Source: a virus
Length of the DNA stretch: 37,637 nt
Reading direction: 5' to 3' (one strand)
Virus record (IMG/VR): IMGVR_UViG_3300022859_000010
Location: 1-37,637 of that record
Shown here: positions 1 to 37,637 of the stretch, one piece after another
How the letters are laid out: each line of letters starts with the position of its first letter
Position numbering within the stretch: position 1 is the stretch's first letter
Program-made: the position numbers and the translations under genes
The notes under the pieces: generated by a model
What the model was told of the DNA's origin: nothing
What the model saw: only the letters and a program-made list of their open reading frames with translations
Databases searched by the model: none

Positions 1-2454
1 TGAACCACGACCTTCAGTATTAGCAGTCCAAGCCGAAGAACCATTTGGTCCACCAAAATTATTACCCCAAGTATACATACAACCAGTTGATTGGATAACA
101 CCCCATTTAGAAGTAAAGTTATCGTCTGTTGCACTCATTTGTGTTGTAGTTGGGTCACTTCCTCTTGAACTTGCTTCTGTAGTTCCATAAGCTAATGCAG
201 AAAATTCTTGATAAGTAGGTGGTCTTTTCCCATGAGAAGATAATAGTTCAGCTTGTTCCCACCAAGTATAAGAACCATAAGTTGTTGAACCATTACCACC
301 AAATAAACTTGGTACTTTAGGTGGAGAACTTCCATCTGCTATTGTAACATTATAATAAGATGTTCCATTAGTATGATGGTCAACTCCTGTTAAATAAATA
401 TCTGACCAAAAATGTCCACCAACTAAAGTCATACCTCTTGGGTCTGGACAATTAGGTTTCCATTTTAAATCCCATAATGAATATTCGTTAATTGATGCAG
501 TAGTATCTCCACCTGATGTTCCTGTTGCGTTTCCACCAGGAGCATAATGAAATCCACCTACTTTTCTAGCATTTGCTGATGGTGGACTAACATGGTCTGT
601 AGTTGCTTCTAAAGCACCAGCAGTTGTACACCAAATAGCATAATCTGTTCCAGCTGTAGCTGATGGCATAGTAATAGAAGTTGCTGAAGCTATAGTTTTA
701 ACATCACCATTAACTTCAATGTATAATCCTGTGTTAGTCTCCATTGTGAAAGCACCTGTTTTATCCCAAGCAACAACTGTTGGGTCAATTTTAGAAAATA
801 ATCCATATGCTATACTTCCAGAAGAAGCATCACCCCAAGATATATCAGTTCCATCTGATGTTAATACTTGATCTGCCGTACCTTTAGTTAAAATTGCTGT
901 AGCAGCACTAGCATTACCATAAATAATACTTCCTCTGCTTAATCCATCTAATGTATTTAATTCTGCAGCAGTAGAATCTACAGCAGCAAGTTTAGTAAAG
1001 TCAGCTTGAACTAATCCACTAACACCATCTAATAAATTTAGTTCTGTTGCAGTAGAAGTTACAGCTACATCTTCATTTATTTTAGGTGAAGTTAAAGTTT
1101 TGTTTGTAAGAGTTTCTACTCCAGCTAAAGTTGCAAAACCACTTGTACTTACAGCTACGTTTTCCCATGCACTACCACTATAAATACGCATAATATTTGA
1201 AGTAGTATTATAATAAAGCATACCAGCAGCTAAAGCATCACCATCATTATCTGTAGTTGGATCAGAAGATTTAGAACCTAAATAAACATCATCAAAAGCA
1301 TCAGCAGATGCTGCGGCTTCATTTGCAGAAGTAGCTGCGTTAGTTTCAGATGTACTAGCATTGGAAGCAGAAGTAGAGGCATTAGAAGCAGAAGTTCCAG
1401 CATTAGTTTCAGAAGTTCCAGCATTTGTTTCACTTGTACTTGCGTTACTTGCTGATGTACTTGCATTAGATGCTTGAGTAGTAGCTGTACTTGCAGATGT
1501 TGAAGCATTACTTGCTGATGTAGCAGCATTTGTTTCTGATGTACCTGCATTAGTTTCTGATGTTGCAGCGTTTGTTTCGGATGTACCAGCATTTGTTTCA
1601 GAAGTTGCTGCATTAGTTTCTGATGTTGCAGCATTAGTCTCTGCTGTCTCTGCATTAGTCTCTGCTGTTTCAGCATTTGTTTCAGCTAGTTCGGCAGCTG
1701 TTTGTGCGGTTTCTGCAGCAGTTTGTGCAGTTTCTGCATCAGTTGCTGATGCTGCGGCAGCTGTAGCAGACGTTGCAGCACTATAAGCATCTACTAATAA
1801 TGCAAAATGATCTGTGTCTGTTAAAGTATCTCCAATAACACTATTTGCTATACAAATATAAACATTATTTAATTGACCAGCAGTTGTAGATTTAATTATA
1901 TCTCTCACAACATAAGCTGCTGTGGTTGTTGTTGCGTCTGTACCTTGATATGTTCCAAGTTCTTGTGTAACTGAAAGTTCTCCATCTGCATCAAAAGCTA
2001 AAACTTTACTTGCTCTATCAGTTGCCGAATTTGTAAACTCGGTACTTGTCATAGTGTTAGTTCTTGAAATTTTTAATGATCTATTTGCTTGTTCTTGCAA
2101 TTCTTGTAGTATAGCTAAATTTTTATCAAATGCATTTTCAACACTATCAGCAGTAAATGGATCATTTTCTACTAAATCTAATGCTTGTGTTTGTGTAGTT
2201 GATCTTCTTAAAATAACTGTTTCAGTTGCAGCTGGTATATGACCAGCTTCAAATACTACATTACCACCACTTGATTCTCCAGCACCTGTTACTGTATAAT
2301 GAGTTGTTAAAGTTTTAACAGTTTCAGCACCTGCCGCAGAACGTATAATAACCTGCATATCAGCAATAGTAGATATCTTAAATTGATACGCAAATGTATC
2401 ATTACTGGCATCACCAGAATAACTGTTTTTAATTATTGTTGTAGAAATAGTCAT
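1..2454 (-). CDS. Tail fibre with DGR-variable C-terminus (first 818 residues)
   Basis: This is the receptor-binding fibre. The N-terminal ~130 residues (MTISTTIIKNSYSGD..., ending with VENAFDKNLAILQELQEQ) match the T7 gp17-type fibre domain that attaches to the tail tube. A long Ala/Ser/Thr/Asn heptad-repeat shaft follows at about residues 230-380, then repeats of the TAxELNxLDG type, then a globular C-terminal region with CMYTWGNNFGGPNG near position 1. The frame is still open at base 1 (2454 is a whole number of codons). It continues in frame at base 37637 with GGSWVY... and stops at 37515-37517, giving 858 aa in total. The end looks like the C-type-lectin-like fold used by DGR targets (GSRGVCD near the terminus). 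It lies 13 nt after the giant ejection protein gene in the late operon. Assignment of the fold is inferred from the motif and the DGR context. Confidence 0.93.
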   Translation of the reverse strand, partial: MTISTTIIKNSYSGDASNDTFAYQFKISTIADMQVIIRSAAGAETVKTLTTHYTVTGAGESSGGNVVFEAGHIPAATETVILRRSTTQTQALDLVENDPFTADSVENAFDKNLAILQELQEQANRSLKISRTNTMTSTEFTNSATDRASKVLAFDADGELSVTQELGTYQGTDATTTTAAYVVRDIIKSTTAGQLNNVYICIANSVIGDTLTDTDHFALLVDAYSAATSATAAAASATDAETAQTAAETAQTAAELAETNAETAETNAETAETNAATSETNAATSETNAGTSETNAATSETNAGTSETNAATSASNASTSASTATTQASNASTSASNASTSETNAGTSETNAGTSASNASTSASNASTSETNAATSANEAAASADAFDDVYLGSKSSDPTTDNDGDALAAGMLYYNTTSNIMRIYSGSAWENVAVSTSGFATLAGVETLTNKTLTSPKINEDVAVTSTATELNLLDGVSGLVQADFTKLAAVDSTAAELNTLDGLSRGSIIYGNASAATAILTKGTADQVLTSDGTDISWGDASSGSIAYGLFSKIDPTVVAWDKTGAFTMETNTGLYIEVNGDVKTIASATSITMPSATAGTDYAIWCTTAGALEATTDHVSPPSANARKVGGFHYAPGGNATGTSGGDTTASINEYSLWDLKWKPNCPDPRGMTLVGGHFWSDIYLTGVDHHTNGTSYYNVTIADGSSPPKVPSLFGGNGSTTYGSYTWWEQAELLSSHGKRPPTYQEFSALAYGTTEASSRGSDPTTTQMSATDDNFTSKWGVIQSTGCMYTWGNNFGGPNGSSAWTANTEGRGS
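1312..1752 (-). repeat. Imperfect 21-bp tandem repeats coding the fibre shaft heptads
   Basis: The fibre gene carries about twenty imperfect 7-codon repeats of the pattern SETNAAT / SETNAGT / SASNAST, with related AETNAET and AQTAAET units at the N-terminal side. They encode an Ala-rich trimeric coiled-coil-like shaft. The repetition also creates long spurious ORFs in the other frames of the same strand. Such arrays can expand or contract by recombination and so change shaft length. Confidence 0.85.
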
Positions 2455-2467
2455 TACTTTTTATATA

Positions 2468-5400
2468 TCATTGTTTTTTCATGAAGGGAACATTATAATC
2501 TAATTCTTTCTCAATGTCAGCCATTTTCCTTAAAGCCCTTGTTAAATCATCACCTTCTAAAGTTAATAAATACTGCATAAATTTTGTACCATATGTATAG
2601 TTTAAAGCTGTAGTATATCTTTTCATCCAACCTTTATCTTTAGATAATGCTTCTTCTTGTGATTTAGATAACTTTTTATTAGATAATAAATTTTGAACAG
2701 CTAAATCAGCAACAGCAGAATAATGATTATCCTGTTGTTTTCCTTCTGAAAGTTCTTTCCATACTTGTTCTGTAATACCTTGATTAGATACTTTTAAAAA
2801 CCTTGCTACTGTTTTACCAAATATAGGAACACCTAATGTATCTTCAATTTCTGTAACTATACTATCTAGATTATAAGGATCATAATAACTATCAAATTTA
2901 TAGAACATCATACCACCACTATTATTCCAGAACCATTTACCAAATGCTTTTGATCTTTCCCATTGACCAGCTACACCTGTCATATCTTGTAGTTTTTCTG
3001 GATATACATTTAACCCTGTAAACGGGTCTTTTGGTGCATCACCAAAACCAAATTGAGCCACAGCATTTTTAGCTGCTGCAAAAAAAGGAGAAAAACTTGG
3101 TGTTGATTCATCTAACGCAGGCATAACACCACTCATTAATTCTTGAAAATTATTTTTTAAAGGGTTATCTTCTATTTCTCCATACAATGAATTGTACCCA
3201 TGATATGCAGCTGATCCAAACATTTTTACCATTTCATCTTTAGGAAATTGTAAATATACTACTTTATATAAACTACCATTTGTTGATTTCATTCCAAATT
3301 GAAATTCACCTTGGTCATCTATTACTCCTAAAGGTACTACATAATTACTAGCTAATACATCATTGCCAATTAAATTAAAATACAAATGAGCTGCATGACC
3401 CATAAATCCATATTTAGCAGCTCTATAAATTACTTGTGGTGCTACACCATATGTTAAAAATTTAGCCCACCATGCACCTTGGCCTTGATATCTTTTTGCT
3501 TCTGTTACACTTCTCCATTCTTCTTTAGCTGCATTACCAAATAAAAATATGTTATTATATAAAGTAGCAGCATTACCTTTTCTTAAAAAATTAGGAGAAC
3601 CTGCCCAGTTTCTTATTGCATAATTTATTTGTGAATCTGTCCAATCAATTAAACCTTCATCTCTTAATTTGTTTAAATGTTTAAATGCAGCAATTTTTGT
3701 TGTTCTTTCAAAAACTCTAGATATTCTTTCAGCACTTGTTACTAATTTATAATAAGGGGGTATAACACTTTCATTGCTTAACCATCTATCTGATTGCATA
3801 TCATTTTCAAATTTAGTTATAATAGTATCTCTTAAATGTGGTGCTAATTCTCTTTCAGCTTTAGTTAAATCTTTAATTGATTTTTCTTTATGTGCAAAAC
3901 TAATAACTTTATCTAATGCTGCTTTACTTAATTCTTTCCATTTAGGTATTCTTTTTAATAATATAATACTTCTTAATACTCCATCACCACTCATCCATGA
4001 TGGCATCCCTTCTGTAATACCACCTGCTCTTGATCTATATTTTTCTGTTAATGATATAACTAATCGGTTATTTAACATTTCAACAGCATCTTTATCTTGT
4101 CTTAATTCATCTCGTTTCATTACTTGTCTAAAAGCTGGTGTCCAAGATTTTGCCATTTGTACAACAAAGCTATTTTTTCCACCATGTAATAAATCAAATG
4201 CCGTAGTTTTAGGTAAATTAATAATAGTTCTCATTGTATCTCTAAAAATATTATAAGACCAAAATGTAGGATTTATTTCAGTAAACATTTTACGATATGG
4301 TGCATTTAAACCATACACAAAATTAGTAGCAGCCATGTTATCATATGCATGACTTATCTTATCAAAACCATGTGCTACTTCTTTACCCATATAAGCAGCT
4401 CTTGGTTTACTATTTTCTGTCCATTGAATTAAACTAAACTTACTAATGTCCATTTCTTTATTTGCAGGAATCCATTTTTTATTCATGAAATCCCATTTAG
4501 CTAATTCTACTGTTCTTTCAGTAATAGGTTTGGCTTTTATAAAAGGAAATTTAGCAGTTACTCTTAATTGTTTTCTTTCAAAATTTTCTATATCATTTTT
4601 ATGTTTAATTAAAAATCTATTAATTGTACCTACAACAGAATTTCTTTCTGCTATTTGTAGTAATTGCCAATCTTTAAGTATAGTAGCTTCAAATACATTA
4701 GCTTCTTCTTTAGCTGTGCCATATTTTGTTTTAATAATAAAACCTTGTACCCATGAATCATTTTTCCAACTAGCATATTCTTCAATACGGAATGTTACAA
4801 ATTCTCTATTATTTTTAATAATCTCTAAAGTAGCTGCATCAAATACACCAGACTTTTCTAATTCCTTTATAACATATTTACTTCTGTAATTATAAAATGC
4901 TTCTGCAAGTTGTTTAATTTCTGGTGTCATTTTTTCTTGTAATGCTACCATCTCACCTGCTTTTATAACTTCTATACCTTTAGGATTTAATACATTTGCT
5001 CTTGGCCCATCTGGTTTAGCTATCCATTTATATTTTAAATATGCTGCAAAAATATCTCTATTAATTCCAGAATCTTGCATAGGTTTAAATACTTCTGTCC
5101 ATAAAGCATTTTGTACTCTTTCTATATAAGTATCTTGATATAACAATTTTTCTATTGCTAGTTCTACATTTTCTCTATCTTCTACTTTAAATCTTTTTGA
5201 ACCTTTTTCTTGTGAAATTAATTTAGCAGCTGTTTTACCTAATAAATCACTACCAAATAATTTACCTTCATGTACTTTTTTATAATAATTAAGAATAGTA
5301 AAAAATACACTATCTACATTTCTTCTTATAAAATCATAAGTATCAGAAACTTCTAATTCTTTTTCTGCTTTATTAAATATTTTCATTCTTGTTTCTCTAT

Positions 5401-8400
5401 ATGATTTTACTTGGTCTTTTAAAATATTTGCATTTTTTTGATCTTTAGGTAGATTTAATTCTGTTTGAGTTTCTTCCCATACCTTTAACACCTCTGGTTT
5501 TCTATGCATATAATTCATCCAAGTTCTAAAAGCTATAGGTGCAATTACTTGTGTTTCTTTAGGTCTTAATAAGAATGACATCATAAAATCTGCCATTAAT
5601 TCTGGTGATGAATATCTATAATCTGTAAATTTTTGATCATTTTTTTCATTAAAAGGTTTCCATTTTTGAGTAATTGCTTTTAACTCTACCATTACTTCTG
5701 CTCTACCTACTAAACCTCTTTTAATAACTTCTTTTTGAATAGTTGCTTTTAATATTTCATCTAATTTTTTCTTTTGTGCTGCTGATATGTTTTTACCATC
5801 TAGCTTTCCAGAACCTAATGCTTTTAATATTTCTGGGTGTAACTTGTCTTTCATAGCATCTTTTACAATAGCTTTTTTTAACTCTGAACTTGCTCTGGCA
5901 TAAGCCTCATATACAGCAGGATCAAGAAGTTCTCTTGCTTTAGCATCTGAAAAGATTTTTAATATATCTTTAGGCTCAAAACCTAAACTTTTAATTTCTT
6001 TGTCTGTTCTTTTAAATAATGCTTTAGCTGTTTTTTCTGCTTCATATCTTAATTTAGCCATTTCAGCAGTTGTAAATGGGCCTTCTCCACCTTCTTTACC
6101 AGCCATCCATTCATTCATATATTTTTTTAATGAAGCTAAACGACCTAATACATTACCTCTAGACAAAGTAGCATCTGGAATAAAATCTATATAATGGCCT
6201 AATTCATGGCTCATTGTCATTAAAATAGATTCTAAATTCTTTTTGTAATCTTTGTCTGTAGCATCTATTAAATCTTTGTTTATTTCTATTTTACCTTTTC
6301 CGCCTTCGGAATATTTCATCTTACCTAAAGTTATTCCGCCTCTTATTTGTCTAAATTTTTGAGCAGTAGGAGTATCTCCTTGGGATAATTCAGTAAACAT
6401 TTTAATAAGATCATATAATTCTAATCCCTTAAATACATTAGTATCTTTGTTTAACTTTATATCTTCCCATGATGGTGCTTCTCTACTAGTTCCTTTACTA
6501 GCATATGTTGCATCTGCAAATTCTTTTTCTCCTAAATCAAATTCTTGTTTAAATTTATTAGCTTCGTTATTAACTTTTTGATTAGGTTTATTAGACATTA
6601 ACAAACCTGTCATTTCACCTTTAGAATTTCTAAAAATTAAAACACCAGAATTAGAATATTTTTCACCTGATAAATTATACTTACTATTTACAGTATCGTA
6701 ATGCCCTGTTACTACAGCATCTTTATTATCATTTAATTTTTTTAATGACATATATGCGTGTAAATCAAATGTAAATGGTTTATTATTAATATCAACTACT
6801 AGACTTTCAGATTCAACACCTAGTTTATTATCTCTGTCTATTTTAAATAATAATTTAACTTTATGTTCATTTGTTTGTTTAGGTATAAAATCTTTAATTA
6901 AATCAGTTATATTTTTATCTTGTAATCTAGCAACTGTTTTTTGTATTTTATTTAACTCTGTACCTAAATTTTTATAATGAGTACCTATAAACATCATAAT
7001 ACTATTAGATGATACCATCCCACTTTTATCTGAAACAAATTTTTTATTACTTATATTTTCAAATGCTTGAACATCTTTATGATATGTTGTTTCAAATATT
7101 TTAGCATCTTCTTTTATTAATTCTATTTTTTGTTCATATTCACCTTTAGTTTGTTTTGATTCAAATTCTGTACTGTCTTTAAATATTTCAACTTTTTTAC
7201 TTGGTTTCCATTTTTCTACCAAACTTTCAGCTAGTTTAAATTTTTCACCATTTTCTTTTTCTATTAAATAAATATGTTCTTTACCTTCAAAACCAACTTC
7301 TAAAACTCTACCTTTTTCTTTTCCTATAGCATCTATTTTAACTTCCATACCTGTATAAAATAATGGTTTAGGTATATGGTCAATTCTATTTTCATTATTT
7401 TTTCCAACAGCTTCATTCATTTTTTTAATAATAGCTAATTGCTGTTCTCTATATTCAAATGGCATATCTTTACTTGTATCTAATATGTCTGTTAATACTG
7501 TTGAATCTTTTTCTATATCTTTTAAAATTTCTTTAGGTGATTTTCCTGTTTGATAATAAAGTTTATATAATTTATTAACTCCATCTTTCATGTATTTAGA
7601 TGATGTAGATATTGCAGTTTTTGAACCACTCATACCAGCTTTTAATCCAAATATAACTACTGCTGCATCTATAAAATCTTCTTTTCTAGGGGGTACATAT
7701 TGTTCATCAGTAGCTAATACATTTATTATAGATGGTACTGTAGCTAACGCAGAAATCTCTCCAGATACTTTAGATGTACCTAACAACCAATCTCCAAATG
7801 CAGTTCCTTTTTCTAATACTTTTCCTGCTTTATCTTTAATAGTAGTTGCTAATCCAAATTTATTAATTATAGGCCCAGCTACTTTACCTGCAACTATACC
7901 ACCTACTGCTACACCAGCACCTAAAGCAAAATCTTTACCATAAACTTTAGCTGTTGTTTCACTTAAAACTATATCCCAAAATCCTTCAAAAGTTTCTGCT
8001 TCACTTTGCATATATGTTTCTATTAATGCGTGTCTTAAAGCACCATGTAATGCAAATGCACTACCTGTTATAATTAGAGGACTTACAGGTAAAGTAGCAC
8101 CACCAGTTACAGTTGCTAATACTGCTGCTTTTGCTATACCAACACCTGCACCTACAGCAAAAAAACCTAAATCTTGTCCTATTGATCTAATACCTGCTAA
8201 TCCTCTTTTATCCCATCTTTGTCCATCTGACATAAATTCTTCTACAAGTTTTACTACATCTAATTTTTTACCAGTTTTTTTTTGTTCTTCTAAATCTGAA
8301 TACAATCTGTAAGACATTTCTAATACTGATTGCATACCACCTCTTTCCCAAGAATCTTTTCTTCCTTCACCCATAAGATTATCACCAGCCATAGATATAA

Positions 8401-9520
8401 AATCTGGCATTGCTTTTCCAAATGCAGGTAATTGCATAGATGTTTGTTTAACTTCTTCTCCACTAAACACAGAAGCATGATCTAAATTTTTAACAAGTCT
8501 ATTCTTAATCATTTCTAATTCTTCTGGTTTTATTCCTTTAGGTATTAAATAGTTATCTATTAATAAATTAGCTGTAGCTGCTGTGTTATTTTCATCCATG
8601 CTAATTAAACTTTTAAAACTACTTGCAAAACCTTCTTGCTTGTTTAAATATGCTAAAAATAATGCAGTTTGTGCATCTGGTGTTAGTCCACTTATATCCT
8701 TGTCATCTTTTAATTCTGCAATCCAATAAGGAAATTCTGGAGAATGAATACCATTTTTAGTTAAGATATCTATATAAGCATTTAAACCAGTTTGGACTTG
8801 TTCTTCTGACATTCTAAACATACCAGATTCTCCATTACCCCATGAGTAACTTCTTGATCCCCATGCCTCATTACCAGTTAATGCTTTAGCAAAATGTTTT
8901 AAACTACTATTTAACATAAAACTTGCAGCTTTATAACTTTTCTTTTGAACACCTAATTCATCATACATATGCTGTAATGTATTTATAGTATGTCCAGCAT
9001 ATGAATTTATTAAATCTTCATTTAATGTAAAATCGCTGTAATATTCTTCACTAACAGGAACTCCTCTATTATCATAAATTTTTTTATTAACATCTAAATT
9101 AATGGCATTTCTATTTGCAAATGCTTCTTTATCTAATTGGTCAAAATTATAAGGTACATTATCATTAGATTGTAAATTAGCATTTATATTGTTGTTTAAT
9201 AATTCTTCATATTGAATAATTTTATTATCTCTTTTTTCTTTAGTATTATTATCAACATTTAATGTTGTTTCATGTTCTTTTTCTTGTAATTGAGTAGAGT
9301 TTAAATTTGCATCTAAAGGACTAACTATATCTTGTGTATTTGTATTACCTATTAAACTATTTAATGTTTTTGATTTAGATTTAAAAGGAATACCAAAATG
9401 ATTACTTTGTTCTACTTGGTTATAACCAGCATTAGTTAAAGTTTCTCTTTCCGTATTTAACCAAGAAGCAATTTCTTCTTCCGAATAACCTGCTTTTCTT
9501 AATTCCAATACTGTAGCCAT
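2468..9520 (-). CDS. Giant internal virion (ejection) protein with HELGH metallopeptidase-like motif
   Basis: This 2350-aa protein takes up nearly a fifth of the genome. Its position next to the tail fibre and after the core proteins corresponds to T7 gp16, the large core protein ejected into the host envelope. Residues ~1105-1109 read HELGH within MSHELGHYIDF, the zinc-binding pattern of gluzincin-type peptidases. A Gly/Ala-rich hydrophobic stretch at ~450-495 could insert in a membrane. The C-terminal ~600 residues (RISRVFERTTKIAAFKHL, NWAGSPNF, GNAAKEEWRS) resemble the LPD38-type domain of phage polyvalent ejected proteins. I see no clear lytic transglycosylase domain. Start ATG at 9520 is 1 nt from the upstream gene's stop. 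The ejection role is inferred; the motif is seen directly. Confidence 0.85.
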   Translation of the reverse strand: MATVLELRKAGYSEEEIASWLNTERETLTNAGYNQVEQSNHFGIPFKSKSKTLNSLIGNTNTQDIVSPLDANLNSTQLQEKEHETTLNVDNNTKEKRDNKIIQYEELLNNNINANLQSNDNVPYNFDQLDKEAFANRNAINLDVNKKIYDNRGVPVSEEYYSDFTLNEDLINSYAGHTINTLQHMYDELGVQKKSYKAASFMLNSSLKHFAKALTGNEAWGSRSYSWGNGESGMFRMSEEQVQTGLNAYIDILTKNGIHSPEFPYWIAELKDDKDISGLTPDAQTALFLAYLNKQEGFASSFKSLISMDENNTAATANLLIDNYLIPKGIKPEELEMIKNRLVKNLDHASVFSGEEVKQTSMQLPAFGKAMPDFISMAGDNLMGEGRKDSWERGGMQSVLEMSYRLYSDLEEQKKTGKKLDVVKLVEEFMSDGQRWDKRGLAGIRSIGQDLGFFAVGAGVGIAKAAVLATVTGGATLPVSPLIITGSAFALHGALRHALIETYMQSEAETFEGFWDIVLSETTAKVYGKDFALGAGVAVGGIVAGKVAGPIINKFGLATTIKDKAGKVLEKGTAFGDWLLGTSKVSGEISALATVPSIINVLATDEQYVPPRKEDFIDAAVVIFGLKAGMSGSKTAISTSSKYMKDGVNKLYKLYYQTGKSPKEILKDIEKDSTVLTDILDTSKDMPFEYREQQLAIIKKMNEAVGKNNENRIDHIPKPLFYTGMEVKIDAIGKEKGRVLEVGFEGKEHIYLIEKENGEKFKLAESLVEKWKPSKKVEIFKDSTEFESKQTKGEYEQKIELIKEDAKIFETTYHKDVQAFENISNKKFVSDKSGMVSSNSIMMFIGTHYKNLGTELNKIQKTVARLQDKNITDLIKDFIPKQTNEHKVKLLFKIDRDNKLGVESESLVVDINNKPFTFDLHAYMSLKKLNDNKDAVVTGHYDTVNSKYNLSGEKYSNSGVLIFRNSKGEMTGLLMSNKPNQKVNNEANKFKQEFDLGEKEFADATYASKGTSREAPSWEDIKLNKDTNVFKGLELYDLIKMFTELSQGDTPTAQKFRQIRGGITLGKMKYSEGGKGKIEINKDLIDATDKDYKKNLESILMTMSHELGHYIDFIPDATLSRGNVLGRLASLKKYMNEWMAGKEGGEGPFTTAEMAKLRYEAEKTAKALFKRTDKEIKSLGFEPKDILKIFSDAKARELLDPAVYEAYARASSELKKAIVKDAMKDKLHPEILKALGSGKLDGKNISAAQKKKLDEILKATIQKEVIKRGLVGRAEVMVELKAITQKWKPFNEKNDQKFTDYRYSSPELMADFMMSFLLRPKETQVIAPIAFRTWMNYMHRKPEVLKVWEETQTELNLPKDQKNANILKDQVKSYRETRMKIFNKAEKELEVSDTYDFIRRNVDSVFFTILNYYKKVHEGKLFGSDLLGKTAAKLISQEKGSKRFKVEDRENVELAIEKLLYQDTYIERVQNALWTEVFKPMQDSGINRDIFAAYLKYKWIAKPDGPRANVLNPKGIEVIKAGEMVALQEKMTPEIKQLAEAFYNYRSKYVIKELEKSGVFDAATLEIIKNNREFVTFRIEEYASWKNDSWVQGFIIKTKYGTAKEEANVFEATILKDWQLLQIAERNSVVGTINRFLIKHKNDIENFERKQLRVTAKFPFIKAKPITERTVELAKWDFMNKKWIPANKEMDISKFSLIQWTENSKPRAAYMGKEVAHGFDKISHAYDNMAATNFVYGLNAPYRKMFTEINPTFWSYNIFRDTMRTIINLPKTTAFDLLHGGKNSFVVQMAKSWTPAFRQVMKRDELRQDKDAVEMLNNRLVISLTEKYRSRAGGITEGMPSWMSGDGVLRSIILLKRIPKWKELSKAALDKVISFAHKEKSIKDLTKAERELAPHLRDTIITKFENDMQSDRWLSNESVIPPYYKLVTSAERISRVFERTTKIAAFKHLNKLRDEGLIDWTDSQINYAIRNWAGSPNFLRKGNAATLYNNIFLFGNAAKEEWRSVTEAKRYQGQGAWWAKFLTYGVAPQVIYRAAKYGFMGHAAHLYFNLIGNDVLASNYVVPLGVIDDQGEFQFGMKSTNGSLYKVVYLQFPKDEMVKMFGSAAYHGYNSLYGEIEDNPLKNNFQELMSGVMPALDESTPSFSPFFAAAKNAVAQFGFGDAPKDPFTGLNVYPEKLQDMTGVAGQWERSKAFGKWFWNNSGGMMFYKFDSYYDPYNLDSIVTEIEDTLGVPIFGKTVARFLKVSNQGITEQVWKELSEGKQQDNHYSAVADLAVQNLLSNKKLSKSQEEALSKDKGWMKRYTTALNYTYGTKFMQYLLTLEGDDLTRALRKMADIEKELDYNVPFMKKQ

Positions 9521-34644: not shown

Positions 34645-34830
34645 ATGATTATATTAAAAGATGTTATAATAAACTACCAGAACGAATCCAAAACACCTGA
34701 AATTAGAGATGTTTATATTGTTAAAGGAAAAGTAAAATATATAAATCTTATTGAACAATTAAAAAATCTTAAAGAAACAATTGACGGATCACCAAAGGAG
34801 TTGTATGAACAAACGAATATTAATAATTAG
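34645..34830 (+). CDS. Small hypothetical protein after lysozyme
   Basis: This 61-aa protein (MIILKDVIINYQNESKTPEI...) starts at ATG 34645 after AAGG. Its end overlaps the metallophosphoesterase by 26 nt and contains that gene's ribosome site. A beta-rich start followed by a helix (EQLKNLKETIDG) looks protein-like. No family. Confidence 0.5.
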   Translation: MIILKDVIINYQNESKTPEIRDVYIVKGKVKYINLIEQLKNLKETIDGSPKELYEQTNINN

Positions 34831-35503
34831 CGATTTACACATACCATACCACCATGAAGACAGTTTTGCATTTTTACGAGAGATTAAAAAACAATATAAG
34901 CCAAACTTCGTGGTTAATATTGGCGACCTACTTGATTTCCATGCTATATCTATGCACGATCACAATCCAGACTTACCTTCTGCTGGTGACGAATTAAAAA
35001 TTTCTAAAGAATACATTAAAGAATTAGAATCTATATTTCCAGAAGTTATAGAAGTAGATAGCAATCATAGTAGTCTTGTTTACAGACGAGCATTAAAATA
35101 TGGCATGAGTAAACAATTCTTAAAAGATTATGGTGATTTTCTTGGTACTAAAAAATGGAAGTGGATAGATGATCTTACTCTTACAATGGGTAATGGCCAA
35201 AGGTGTTTCTTCACTCATGGAAGAAGTGCAGATGTATTAAAGACTAGTCAAACAATGGGAATGAGTTGTGTTCAAGGACACTTTCATACTAAATTTGTAA
35301 TATCTTATTGGGCCAATCCAGACAATTTGTTTTTTGGAATGAATGTAGGATGTTTAGTTAATCAAAAATCAATGGCATTTGCTTATGCTAGAAATTTTAG
35401 AACTAGATTTATAAATGGTTGTGGTATTATTATTGATGGTATTCCTAAACTATTACCAATGGTATTAAATAATAAAGGTAGATGGATTAAGAAAGTAGTT
35501 TAA
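34805..35503 (+). CDS. Metallophosphoesterase
   Basis: This 232-aa calcineurin-like enzyme has a di-metal site. D10-x-H12 is in ISDLHIPYHHED, D41 in NIGDLLDFH, N87-H88 in EVDSNHSS, and two late histidines are in FTHGRSAD and GHFHTKF. The start is ATG 34805 because AAAGGAG lies 4 nt before it; a TTG at 34781 is a worse choice. Phage members may trim DNA ends or remove phosphates. The specific substrate is unknown. The gene meets the leftward DGR unit tail to tail. Confidence 0.9.
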   Translation: MNKRILIISDLHIPYHHEDSFAFLREIKKQYKPNFVVNIGDLLDFHAISMHDHNPDLPSAGDELKISKEYIKELESIFPEVIEVDSNHSSLVYRRALKYGMSKQFLKDYGDFLGTKKWKWIDDLTLTMGNGQRCFFTHGRSADVLKTSQTMGMSCVQGHFHTKFVISYWANPDNLFFGMNVGCLVNQKSMAFAYARNFRTRFINGCGIIIDGIPKLLPMVLNNKGRWIKKVV

Positions 35504-35649
35504 TCTTTAGGATTATCTAATTTAACTTTAGCTACTGTGTCTTTCCAAGTAGTAGTACCATTCAGTAAGTCTTTGTATTGCATATCCATTTGGTCTTGAA
35601 TTAATAAATAATCATATGCTCTTTTATTTATTGTTGTTATTGTTATTAT
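35500..35649 (-). CDS. Small tail-associated ORF lacking an ATG start
   Basis: This open frame of 49 codons reads ...NKRAYDYLLIQDQMDMQYKD then LLNGTTTWKDTVAKVKLDNPKD. It strongly resembles small phage proteins near fibre genes (pattern YxxxxDQLDxxYxD...W...IxxVKxxxPK). No ATG, GTG or TTG begins the conserved part; the frame opens with ATA codons after TGA. An ATA start, a sequencing or assembly error, or decay are all possible. It overlaps the upstream 78-aa gene's stop and the converging phosphoesterase. Confidence 0.55.
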   Translation of the reverse strand: MITITTINKRAYDYLLIQDQMDMQYKDLLNGTTTWKDTVAKVKLDNPKD

Positions 35650-35882
35650 TCAAAATCTTCTTTAGTAAATTCAAATCTTTCAATAGTAGATAAATCTTCT
35701 ATATCAGTCCAAATAGGTTCTAATTTTTCACCATCATAATTAGGTTCATTATAGTTATCAGGATAGGTTTGAGTATCTTGTTTTCTTGTAATACTTCCTT
35801 TTAATAAATTCATAAACTCTGTGTGTTCAGTAGTTCCTTGAATTTTATCTAAATCTTTTCTTGTGTTAATATTGTATTTCAT
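35646..35882 (-). CDS. Hypothetical protein downstream of DGR reverse transcriptase
   Basis: This 78-aa acidic protein (MKYNINTRKDLDKIQGTTEH...) contains LLKGSITRKQDTQTYPDNYN and an acidic end (FEFTKEDFE). It begins 3 nt after the reverse transcriptase stop and is probably in the same transcript. It could be a fibre chaperone or a DGR accessory protein. No family is recognised. The stop is followed by several further in-frame TAA codons. Confidence 0.6.
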   Translation of the reverse strand: MKYNINTRKDLDKIQGTTEHTEFMNLLKGSITRKQDTQTYPDNYNEPNYDGEKLEPIWTDIEDLSTIERFEFTKEDFE

Positions 35883-35885
35883 AAA

Positions 35886-36872
35886 TTATACTTTAAATCT
35901 TTTGATTATATTGTCAATATAATATTTAATATTATAGCTATTGCTCCATTGAATATGACCATGCCAACTAGCTAAAAATCTAGTTAATTTTTGATTATCA
36001 TTATTTAATAGATATTTATTAATTTTTCTTTTTGCACGAACTACACTTTGTTTTCTTAATAATTTATAATCTTTCCATATTCTATAACCTAAAAAATTTA
36101 TACCTTGATGGGTAGAAGAAACATGCCATTTCCCCATATTTAATTTTAAATGAATACGACAATATTCTTCTAATTGAACAAATATATTTCTTAATAATTT
36201 TTTATTATTATCAAGAATAACAATATCGTCCATGTATCTAGCAAAATATTTTACTTTTAATTTGTGCTTTATAAAATGATCTATGTCATTACCATATATA
36301 TTAGCAAATAATTGACTTGTTAAATTTCCAATAGGTATGCCTGTTTGATTGGTGGGTGTTATTAATTTAATTAAGTTAAATGTTTTATTGCATTTAATCT
36401 TTTTTCTAATCATTTCTAATAACATATTTGTATCTATGCTAGGAAAGTATTTTCTAAAATCTGTTTTTAAGAAATATGTAAAGTCATGTTTTCTTAAATT
36501 AGACTGAATATATTTAACTCCAGCATGAGTTCCATATCCTTTTCTACACGCAAAAGAATTAGGTAAAAATGTTTTTTCAAATATAGGTGTTATAATATTA
36601 CATAAAGCATGTTGGACTATTCTATCTTTAAAAGATAATGCAGATATAAGTCTTTTTTTAGGTTCATAAACATAAAAATTTCTATATTGACCTATTTGGT
36701 ATTTATTATTGATTAGTTCATTTCTTAATTGAATTAAATTATATTGATCAAATTCTTTAAATTCCAAGTAAGAAAATGTTTCCTTTTTACCTTTACAGGT
36801 ATTTTTATAAGCTAATTGTAAATTATTAATATCTACAATTTTTTCAAATAAGTTTCTATATTTTAAACCCAT
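35886..36872 (-). CDS. DGR reverse transcriptase
   Basis: This 328-aa protein has the retroelement RT domains. It has RKGYG (111-114), FLKTDFRKYFPSID with D138, the DGR-specific IGNLTSQ (181-187), the YMDD active site (213-216, D215/D216) and NFLGY (259-263). The [IVL]GNxxSQ form of domain 4 separates DGR enzymes from group II intron RTs. No maturase or endonuclease domain is present, as usual. The enzyme with Avd copies the template RNA and misreads adenine. It lies 140 nt after the template repeat in the standard order fibre-avd-TR-RT. Confidence 0.96.
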   Translation of the reverse strand: MGLKYRNLFEKIVDINNLQLAYKNTCKGKKETFSYLEFKEFDQYNLIQLRNELINNKYQIGQYRNFYVYEPKKRLISALSFKDRIVQHALCNIITPIFEKTFLPNSFACRKGYGTHAGVKYIQSNLRKHDFTYFLKTDFRKYFPSIDTNMLLEMIRKKIKCNKTFNLIKLITPTNQTGIPIGNLTSQLFANIYGNDIDHFIKHKLKVKYFARYMDDIVILDNNKKLLRNIFVQLEEYCRIHLKLNMGKWHVSSTHQGINFLGYRIWKDYKLLRKQSVVRAKRKINKYLLNNDNQKLTRFLASWHGHIQWSNSYNIKYYIDNIIKRFKV

Positions 36873-36986
36873 ATTATTGACAATGCGTTTTTATATTTCA
36901 ATACTCTGCAATACATCAAATCTAAGTTTTGTATTTGCCGAAGCAGGATAAGAAAGCTGATCGTAAAGATCAAACATAGTAGGCTT

Positions 36987-37026
36987 GTGGCGTTACTATA
37001 GTTTAAATTCATATCACAGACGCCAC
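36987..37026 (-). other. Inverted repeat spanning the template repeat end
   Basis: On the minus strand GTGGCGT (37020-37026, within the invariant end of the template repeat) is complementary to ACGCCAC (36987-36993), with 26 nt between. A second small hairpin, TGATC-TTTAC-GATCA, follows a few bases later. These may fold the template RNA and its spacer for reverse-transcriptase priming, as spacer structure does in other DGRs. Confidence 0.55.
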
Positions 37027-37117
37027 GAGACCCAATATTGTTATTAGAATTAGTTGGAGCATTATTCCATTTAGAATTACGTGATCCAGAGTTAGAAGTA
37101 TTATTCCAATTACCACC
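37013..37117 (-). repeat. DGR template repeat (TR)
   Basis: This 105-nt region matches the variable repeat at 37533-37637. By my alignment 88 positions are identical and 17 differ, and all 17 differences are adenines in this copy (17 of its 32 As). It is AAY-rich, the codon type best suited to adenine mutagenesis. The last 24 nt (37013-37036) are identical in both copies and correspond to the IMH*-type initiation segment. It begins 5 nt after the avd stop. An ORF across it (36863-37126) is only its translation. Confidence 0.97.
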
Positions 37118-37122
37118 GAGTT

Positions 37123-37515
37123 TCACGACGTGACTATATCTCTCTTACCCTTTTTATAACTAATCCACGAATCCATACAAAGAATACAATCAGACAATAA
37201 TTGCTGAGAATAACCTTGTTGTTTAAGTGTTAATGCTTTCACATTTTTATTAGTCATAAATCTTAAATAAAATCTTAATAACGACATGCCTGAATCTACT
37301 AAATACATCTTAGATATTTGATTAGATTTACCAGCATCATTAATAAGTTGAACTTGTTTTAATAAACATTCTAATATTTGTTTTTTTAATATACCATGTT
37401 TTCTAGGTATGTTTTGTATGATTGGATATAAGTAATTTATAACCTTTTCATATTTTTCCACAATATTCATTTGTTTGTGATTAATCGTTAAATCTTTAAT
37501 AATGGTTTTCACCAT
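37123..37515 (-). CDS. avd: DGR accessory variability determinant
   Basis: This 130-aa protein is basic and all-helical, with KYEKVINYLYPIIQNIPRKH, GILKKQILECLLKQVQLIND and MYLVDSGMSLLRFYLRFMTN. It matches the Avd four-helix-bundle (S23-like) family, whose pentamer binds the DGR reverse transcriptase and template RNA. Length is typical. Its ATG overlaps the fibre stop (TAATG at 37515), so it is translationally coupled to the target gene. A hairpin overlaps this junction. Confidence 0.92.
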   Translation of the reverse strand: MVKTIIKDLTINHKQMNIVEKYEKVINYLYPIIQNIPRKHGILKKQILECLLKQVQLINDAGKSNQISKMYLVDSGMSLLRFYLRFMTNKNVKALTLKQQGYSQQLLSDCILCMDSWISYKKGKRDIVTS

Positions 37516-37519
37516 TATT
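37498..37519 (-). other. DGR target-recognition hairpin with GAAA loop
   Basis: On the minus strand AATAATGGT-GAAA-ACCATTATT forms a perfect 9-bp stem with a GNRA tetraloop. It begins 13 nt after the variable repeat and covers the fibre stop and avd start. Hairpins or cruciforms with GRNA loops just downstream of VR are known from the Bordetella phage DGR to raise target recognition. The same structure is not seen after the template repeat. Confidence 0.8.
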
Positions 37520-37637
37520 CGTTTGTTTTATGATCACAGACGCCACGAGACCCAATACTGCTATTAGAACTAGTTGGAGCAGCACTCCATAGAGAAAAAC
37601 GTGAACCAGAGCCAGAAGTATAAACCCAACTACCACC
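37515..37637 (-). CDS. Tail fibre C-terminus (last 40 codons, continues from base 1)
   Basis: This is the 3' part of the fibre gene. Joined to the frame ending at base 1, it adds GGSWVYTSGSGSRFSLWSAA then PTSSNSSIGSRGVCDHKTNE and stops with TAA at 37515-37517. GSRGVCD close to the end is typical of C-type-lectin-like DGR targets. Relative to the template, most variable sites are Asn codons changed to Ser, Val, Tyr, Gly, Phe or Ala, with one Lys to Leu. These residues would lie on the binding surface. Confidence 0.93.
   Translation of the reverse strand, partial: GGSWVYTSGSGSRFSLWSAAPTSSNSSIGSRGVCDHKTNE
37533..37637 (-). repeat. DGR variable repeat (VR)
   Basis: This is the diversified copy in the fibre gene. 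It differs from the template at 17 sites, all at template adenines (by my count ten to G, five or six to T and one or two to C), with eleven amino-acid changes and one silent change. The 3' 24 nt (37533-37556) are unchanged. Its upstream edge coincides with the end of the window. Confidence 0.96.

Follow-up and report, generated by a model that had tools for sequence, protein, structure and literature searches.

The window, by which the whole analysed stretch of 37,637 nt (viral record IMGVR_UViG_3300022859_000010) is meant, carries a diversity-generating retroelement (DGR) at its right-hand end. All parts named in the original prediction, i.e. a reverse transcriptase (RT) with the motifs IGNLTSQ and YMDD, an avd gene, a template repeat (TR) and a variable repeat (VR), were found on the minus strand and in the order of phage BPP-1. 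Following this strand, the VR (37533..37637) encodes the tail fibre C-terminus GGSWVYTSGSGSRFSLWSAAPTSSNSSIGSRGVCD and is represented by the last 105 of its 119 nt, the first 14 nt falling outside the record. The end of the fibre ORF (37516..37532, HKTNE-stop) is situated between the VR and a hairpin, and its TAA overlaps the ATG of avd. The hairpin, or cruciform, 3' of the VR (37498..37519) consists of a 9-bp AT-rich stem (AATAATGGT/ACCATTATT) with a GAAA loop and also overlaps the avd start codon. The avd gene (37123..37515) encodes an accessory variability protein of 130 aa, and its end is overlapped by the first 9 nt of the 119-nt TR (37013..37131). The RT gene (35886..36872, 328 aa) is followed by ORF78 (35646..35882), the conserved partner of the Mtd-type tip, and by a remnant of ORF48 (35500..35648). 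In relatives the latter is an ORF of 47-48 aa starting with ATG, which is changed to ATA in the window, and its end coincides with the right edge of the shared block discussed below. A putative phosphodiesterase gene of the podovirus backbone (34781..35503, plus strand), 86.6% identical to that of phage Baldr, adjoins the block and is convergent with it. One TR/VR family was found, with no second VR in the window.

Repeats, target gene and carrier phage

Alignment of 37013..37117 with 37533..37637 revealed 17 mismatches among 105 positions, all 17 at TR adenines, exactly as originally reported; with 32 A among the 105 positions, the probability of this by chance is 3.5e-11. Both 105-nt copies could thus be located where they had been predicted, but the length of the repeat had to be revised. 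Since the TR extends to 37131 (ACGTCGTGAAACTC), where it covers the stop codon of avd, and the VR of relatives holds the same extra 14 nt, with changes at adenines, the repeat measures 119 nt and the VR is incomplete at the record end. A chance repeat was rejected on the basis of the probability (~3e-11) and the pattern seen in relatives. In minus-strand order, window positions 1 and 37637 are separated in relatives by 30 nt, corresponding to 10 codons and containing the initial 14 nt of the VR. The record thus represents a single phage genome that was opened within its VR, ~30 nt being missing. No target ORF is readable within 35886..37637; as the VR is cut by the record end, the target gene is the open minus-strand ORF 1..2454. 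Contigs L003, L007, L009 and L015 show an uninterrupted fibre reading frame that passes through the VR and reaches the same C-terminus.

The N-terminus of the fibre (aa 1 to ~290) is of the podovirus type, like that of Baldr, and is followed by 7-residue repeats and then by an Mtd-type tip. The shaft (1286..1704, minus strand) contains at least 15 tandem 21-nt (7-residue) repeats. The tip spans from ~834 down to position 1 of the window, the ORF continuing into the VR at 37637 after the missing nucleotides. Homology of the tip to the crystal structures of Mtd includes the VR (phmmer, 6e-107), which places the VR at the C-terminus of a target for which a C-type-lectin fold is predicted from this homology. 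An Mtd-like tip, 59-60% identical to that of the window, was also seen in gene 17 of LR745708.1 and LR745707.1, both named Escherichia phage T7; these fibres are probably engineered or hybrid.

Homing in BPP-1 requires a hairpin after the VR, and the stems described in phages are GC-rich (PMC3240598). Compared to the described GC-rich stem of 7-10 bp with a GRNA loop, the hairpin of the window has G-C pairs at two of its nine stem positions; its predicted DNA fold has an energy of -6.8 kcal/mol (z -4.3). In L010 and L018 the loop is AAAA, and pairing of the 9-bp stem is kept through a compensatory T-A to C-G change.

The RT of the window is 52% identical to Brt of BPP-1 and matched the solved structure 8ub7 with an E-value of 2e-108. 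In a phylogenetic tree of seven DGR RTs, four group II RTs and one Cas RT, it grouped with BPP-1 in the DGR clade (support 100/100), apart from the group II intron RTs, as expected for a DGR. Relatives in bacterial genomes were only 29-39% identical, and none was found in SAR11. Avd matched bAvd (PF22296, 3e-23), NF033474 (1.6e-22; with 79.7 bits just under the cut-off, which is 80) and, at E 3e-30, the Avd structures 4dwl and 8ub7 of BPP-1. That the RT belongs to a group II intron or a retron and lies beside a chance repeat has a negligible probability: with TIGR04416, a model of group II intron RTs, the score of 125.8 bits stays far below the cut-off of 300, as does that with the retron St85 model (63 bits, cut-off 235), and the tree speaks against the group II RTs. 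Avd and the bias towards adenines are moreover specific features. On the models and the tree, this explanation was rejected.

Where the sequence downstream of an Mtd-type tip was long enough, a homologue of ORF78 came next in nearly all cases, both in modules carrying a DGR and in those lacking one; in BPP-1 this homologue is bbp4 (63% identical). A confident AF2 model of ORF78 (pLDDT 92.8) gave no fold match in PDB or BFVD. The sole functional lead is a longer homologue (L151) carrying DUF4376, and a role in tip assembly would be a guess.

Homologues in Baldr were identified for 25 ORFs of the window, with 82% identity for the major capsid protein (MCP), 90% for the terminase and up to 75% for the fibre N-terminus. 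Judged by its homologous virion genes and gene order, the carrier is a pelagiphage of the HTVC010P/Baldr type, for which Pelagibacter (SAR11) is the host predicted from relatives only. Baldr (EXVC032P) shares this backbone, but no RT, Avd or Mtd tip was found in it, and three other genes are located between its fibre and the convergent phosphodiesterase. The supposition that DGRs are uncommon in small podovirus-like genomes held in part: an RT or a tip was found in none of 24 other HTVC010P-type contigs, many of them fragments, but BPP-1 has the same organisation. A second HTVC010P-type phage (L134, contig G029), with an MCP 55% identical, carries a diverged tip and DGR (RT 56% identical). The 2350-aa internal virion-like protein of the window (2468..9520, minus strand) is only 26% identical to that of Baldr, while most neighbouring virion proteins reach 70-90%; this region may be another swapped segment.

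Natural diversity of the variable repeat

Ten nearly identical cassettes including that of the window, all from consensus contigs, were compared. No variable column was present in the TR (0 of 105, for the 105-nt part), against 33 of 105 in the VR, 2 of 396 in avd and 8 of 987 in the RT. Eight distinct VRs occur naturally in this set, showing 131 differences from the TR, of which 128 are located at template adenines (58 changes to G, 48 to T and 22 to C). The expectation that polymorphism would be confined to these sites was partly borne out, at the level of consensus contigs, from which polymorphism within populations is inferred, the exceptions being three changes, all T-to-G. Together with the RT, Avd, TR, VR, hairpin and homology to Mtd, this adenine-restricted polymorphism in ten cassettes supports the predicted aim of the DGR at the tail-fibre tip. 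Among the samples that contain relatives, 3300023227 (L009) and 3300023237 (L015) originate from Ace Lake, Antarctica (PMC9716671), as does sample 3300016486 (L117) (PMC7416419).

A decayed element, reduced to remnants and with a VR that no longer changes, was considered as an alternative. Such decay does occur: in L017, L018, L019 and L115, from several samples, one deletion with AAATTA on both sides begins at about codon 28 of avd and reaches as far as the final 65 codons of the RT. The 3' part of avd, the whole TR and the greater part of the RT are thereby lost, and these contigs carry a decayed DGR with a fixed VR. Furthermore, the three siphovirus-type contigs L005, L006 and L009 share one VR, indicating that the VR is not always changing. 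In the window, however, the RT and Avd are intact, the catalytic YMDD is present and the TR is invariant, and among the cassettes eight different VRs stand over nearly identical TR and RT sequences. Decay is therefore a very improbable explanation for the element of the window, and we regard it as very probably a complete and recently active DGR of the BPP-1 type in a podovirus of the HTVC010P/Baldr group, forming part of a circulating, recombining receptor-tip module.

A block shared among unrelated phages

The tip and the DGR form a block of ~3 kb, from the fibre tip to ORF48, which showed 96-98% DNA identity across otherwise different contigs. Its carriers, the podovirus of the window, an HTVC111P-type pelagiphage and a Methylophilales-type phage, have little else in common. 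The 31.6-kb contig L009 is of the HTVC111P type, with 29 ORFs matched and a portal 84% identical, and it encodes a J-like tail protein as well as a tape measure protein; apart from the block, the phosphodiesterase and two weakly similar small ORFs are all that it has in common with the window. This phosphodiesterase (34781..35503, plus strand, in the window; 12229..12930 in L009) is 80% identical between both, and HTVC111P's own copy less than 50%; the gene beside the block was perhaps exchanged as well. L113 and L012 are Zobellviridae-like and nearest to Methylophilales phage MEP402 (portal 85% identical; 15 ORFs of L113 matching MEP402), and L113 has the tip alone in common with the window (98.6% nucleotide identity). 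L108 (55.7 kb) represents another phage type, only distantly like HTVC027P (33%). For a 1091-aa protein of L004 no match was found.

The left end of the block is located either within a fibre linker that the contigs share or precisely where the Mtd module begins (window ~829-834), and its right end coincides with that of ORF78 or ORF48. No recombinase was seen in it, and homologous recombination in the tip and ORF78 would be the simplest cause of its movement. Alternatively, the DGR could be native to one phage, e.g. a siphovirus, with the window and several other contigs being assembly chimeras formed through the shared repeat. The block is indeed a near-identical repeat of 2-3 kb, the short contigs L003, L005 and L007 join flanks of different phages and may be mis-phased assemblies, and an exact search of other viral contigs gave no second example of the window's right-hand junction. 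A repeat can mis-pair flanks, but it cannot create the junctions themselves, which must exist in the reads. In the window, 36 kb of unique podovirus sequence is joined to the block at both ends, and the record breaks off inside the VR, as would be expected of a real carrier; in several contexts, moreover, the fusion within the fibre preserves the reading frame. Both junctions are also present in L009 on one contig of a single phage type, with the same order in its cousin L017/L115. A chimeric origin is thus very unlikely, and exchange of the block between phages is the preferred reading.

The DGR itself was not constant within this module. L012 and L113 belong to one phage type: their left flanks (3.9 kb) are 99.7% identical and their right flanks (0.9 kb) 100%. 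Between these flanks, L012 (4885..6529) contains avd, TR and RT with the DGR-linked allele of ORF78, where L113 (5763..5775) has 13 nt and the other allele. As the RT of L012 is frameshifted in the contig, L012 indicates the presence of a DGR and not its function. From these alignments, the DGR is gained or lost between backbones of more than 99.6% identity. A tree of the tips shows at least 10 switches between presence and absence of a DGR, a few of the rows labelled as lacking a DGR being partial deletions.

Five modules without a DGR (L108, L109, L111, L113 and L116) share one junction between VR and ORF78, with 2-6 differences over 209 nt. In pairwise comparisons of these modules, 16-25 of the 36 template-A sites of the VR are different, as against 0-4 of the other 83 sites. 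Compared to the TR of the window, all 19 differences of L109 and all 20 of L111 are situated at adenines (p 2e-12 and 3e-13), with no adjoining TR in either. If the junction arose once, the VR diversity reached these phages afterwards, and a shared junction with VRs differing at A-sites points to recombination, or homing in trans, as the process which parts the rewritten tips from their writer.

In the case of homing in trans, a co-infecting phage would supply RT, Avd and TR for mutagenic homing in the DGR-less phage. The five modules, with one junction and one ORF78 allele and with VRs differing mostly at template-A sites, would fit this route. However, the hairpin needed for homing in BPP-1 (PMC3240598) was absent from all ten DGR-less modules checked, which makes the route less likely, and recombination in the near-identical tip, a process independently seen for the whole block, gives the same pattern. 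Homing in trans is thus rather unlikely, and VR diversity most likely reached the DGR-less phages through recombination with phages that carry a DGR.

Proposed mechanism and comparison with known systems

By analogy with BPP-1, the TR RNA would be copied by the RT with Avd, errors entering at template adenines, and the cDNA would replace the VR at the fibre C-terminus; the hairpin and an IMH-like 3' end would serve to mark the target. Progeny would in this way gain new receptor-binding surfaces, and the DGR, as had been proposed from the sequence, would let the phage shift its receptor binding. The unit of exchange is very probably the tip with its VR, the avd-TR-RT segment and ORF78, often with ORF48, circulating between unrelated phages. 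Its exchange would be explained most simply by recombination, which at the left end would fall within the tip or linker and at the right end within ORF78/ORF48 or beyond them. The DGR itself is gained and lost from the receptor-tip module.

Tentatively, and with slightly less than even confidence, the DGR may be seen as a shared diversifier: the tip module would pass between phages that occur together but belong to different families and probably infect different hosts (SAR11, Methylophilales), and phages lacking a DGR would continue to acquire tips written by one, through recombination (or homing in trans). If so, a few mutator-bearing phages would supply tip diversity to the wider phage community. 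A BPP-1-like system in the HTVC010P group would also mean targeted change of receptor binding for SAR11 phages. The interest of the locus lies in the pelagiphage DGR, in the near-identical sharing among unrelated phages and in the split of rewritten tips from their writer. With a near-identical block and with DGR-plus and DGR-minus alleles in near-identical backbones, a long-standing question becomes testable in nature, namely how receptor tips and mutators move between phages and what is gained from keeping a mutator versus borrowing its products.

No pelagiphage DGR was found in the literature searched. According to the accessible part of the global survey of Roux et al. 2021, DGRs move between genomes, their targets are modular and may recombine within genes, and saline lakes are DGR-rich and the open ocean DGR-poor (PMC8144416); DGRs have been described as rare in the open ocean. 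In contrast to the present case, that part of the survey names no pelagiphage example, no near-identical block across phage families and no pair of DGR-plus and DGR-minus forms of one backbone (PMC8144416). The Pseudoalteromonas phages ACA1 and ACA2 and phage VHML, in the portion of their description available, likewise carry antireceptor, avd, TR, RT and a small third gene as a module, and the VR holds most of the differences between the ACA phages (PMC10612066). These are P2-like phages with an RT 39% identical to that of the window, and the same portion does not describe sharing with unrelated phage types (PMC10612066).

The closest resemblance is to BPP-1, with the gene order mtd-VR-avd-TR-brt followed by bbp4, and with identities of 52% for the RT, ~56% for the tip and 63% for ORF78. 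The same YMDD, a hairpin with GAAA loop after the VR and a C-terminal VR with AAC/AAT codons in nearly the same places are also shared. Differences from BPP-1 were also seen. The stem of the window is AT-rich and overlaps the start of avd, its TR overlaps the end of avd, and the backbone is that of a pelagiphage. Mtd of BPP-1 is a short and separate protein, whereas the tip of the window is fused to a long pelagiphage tail fibre.
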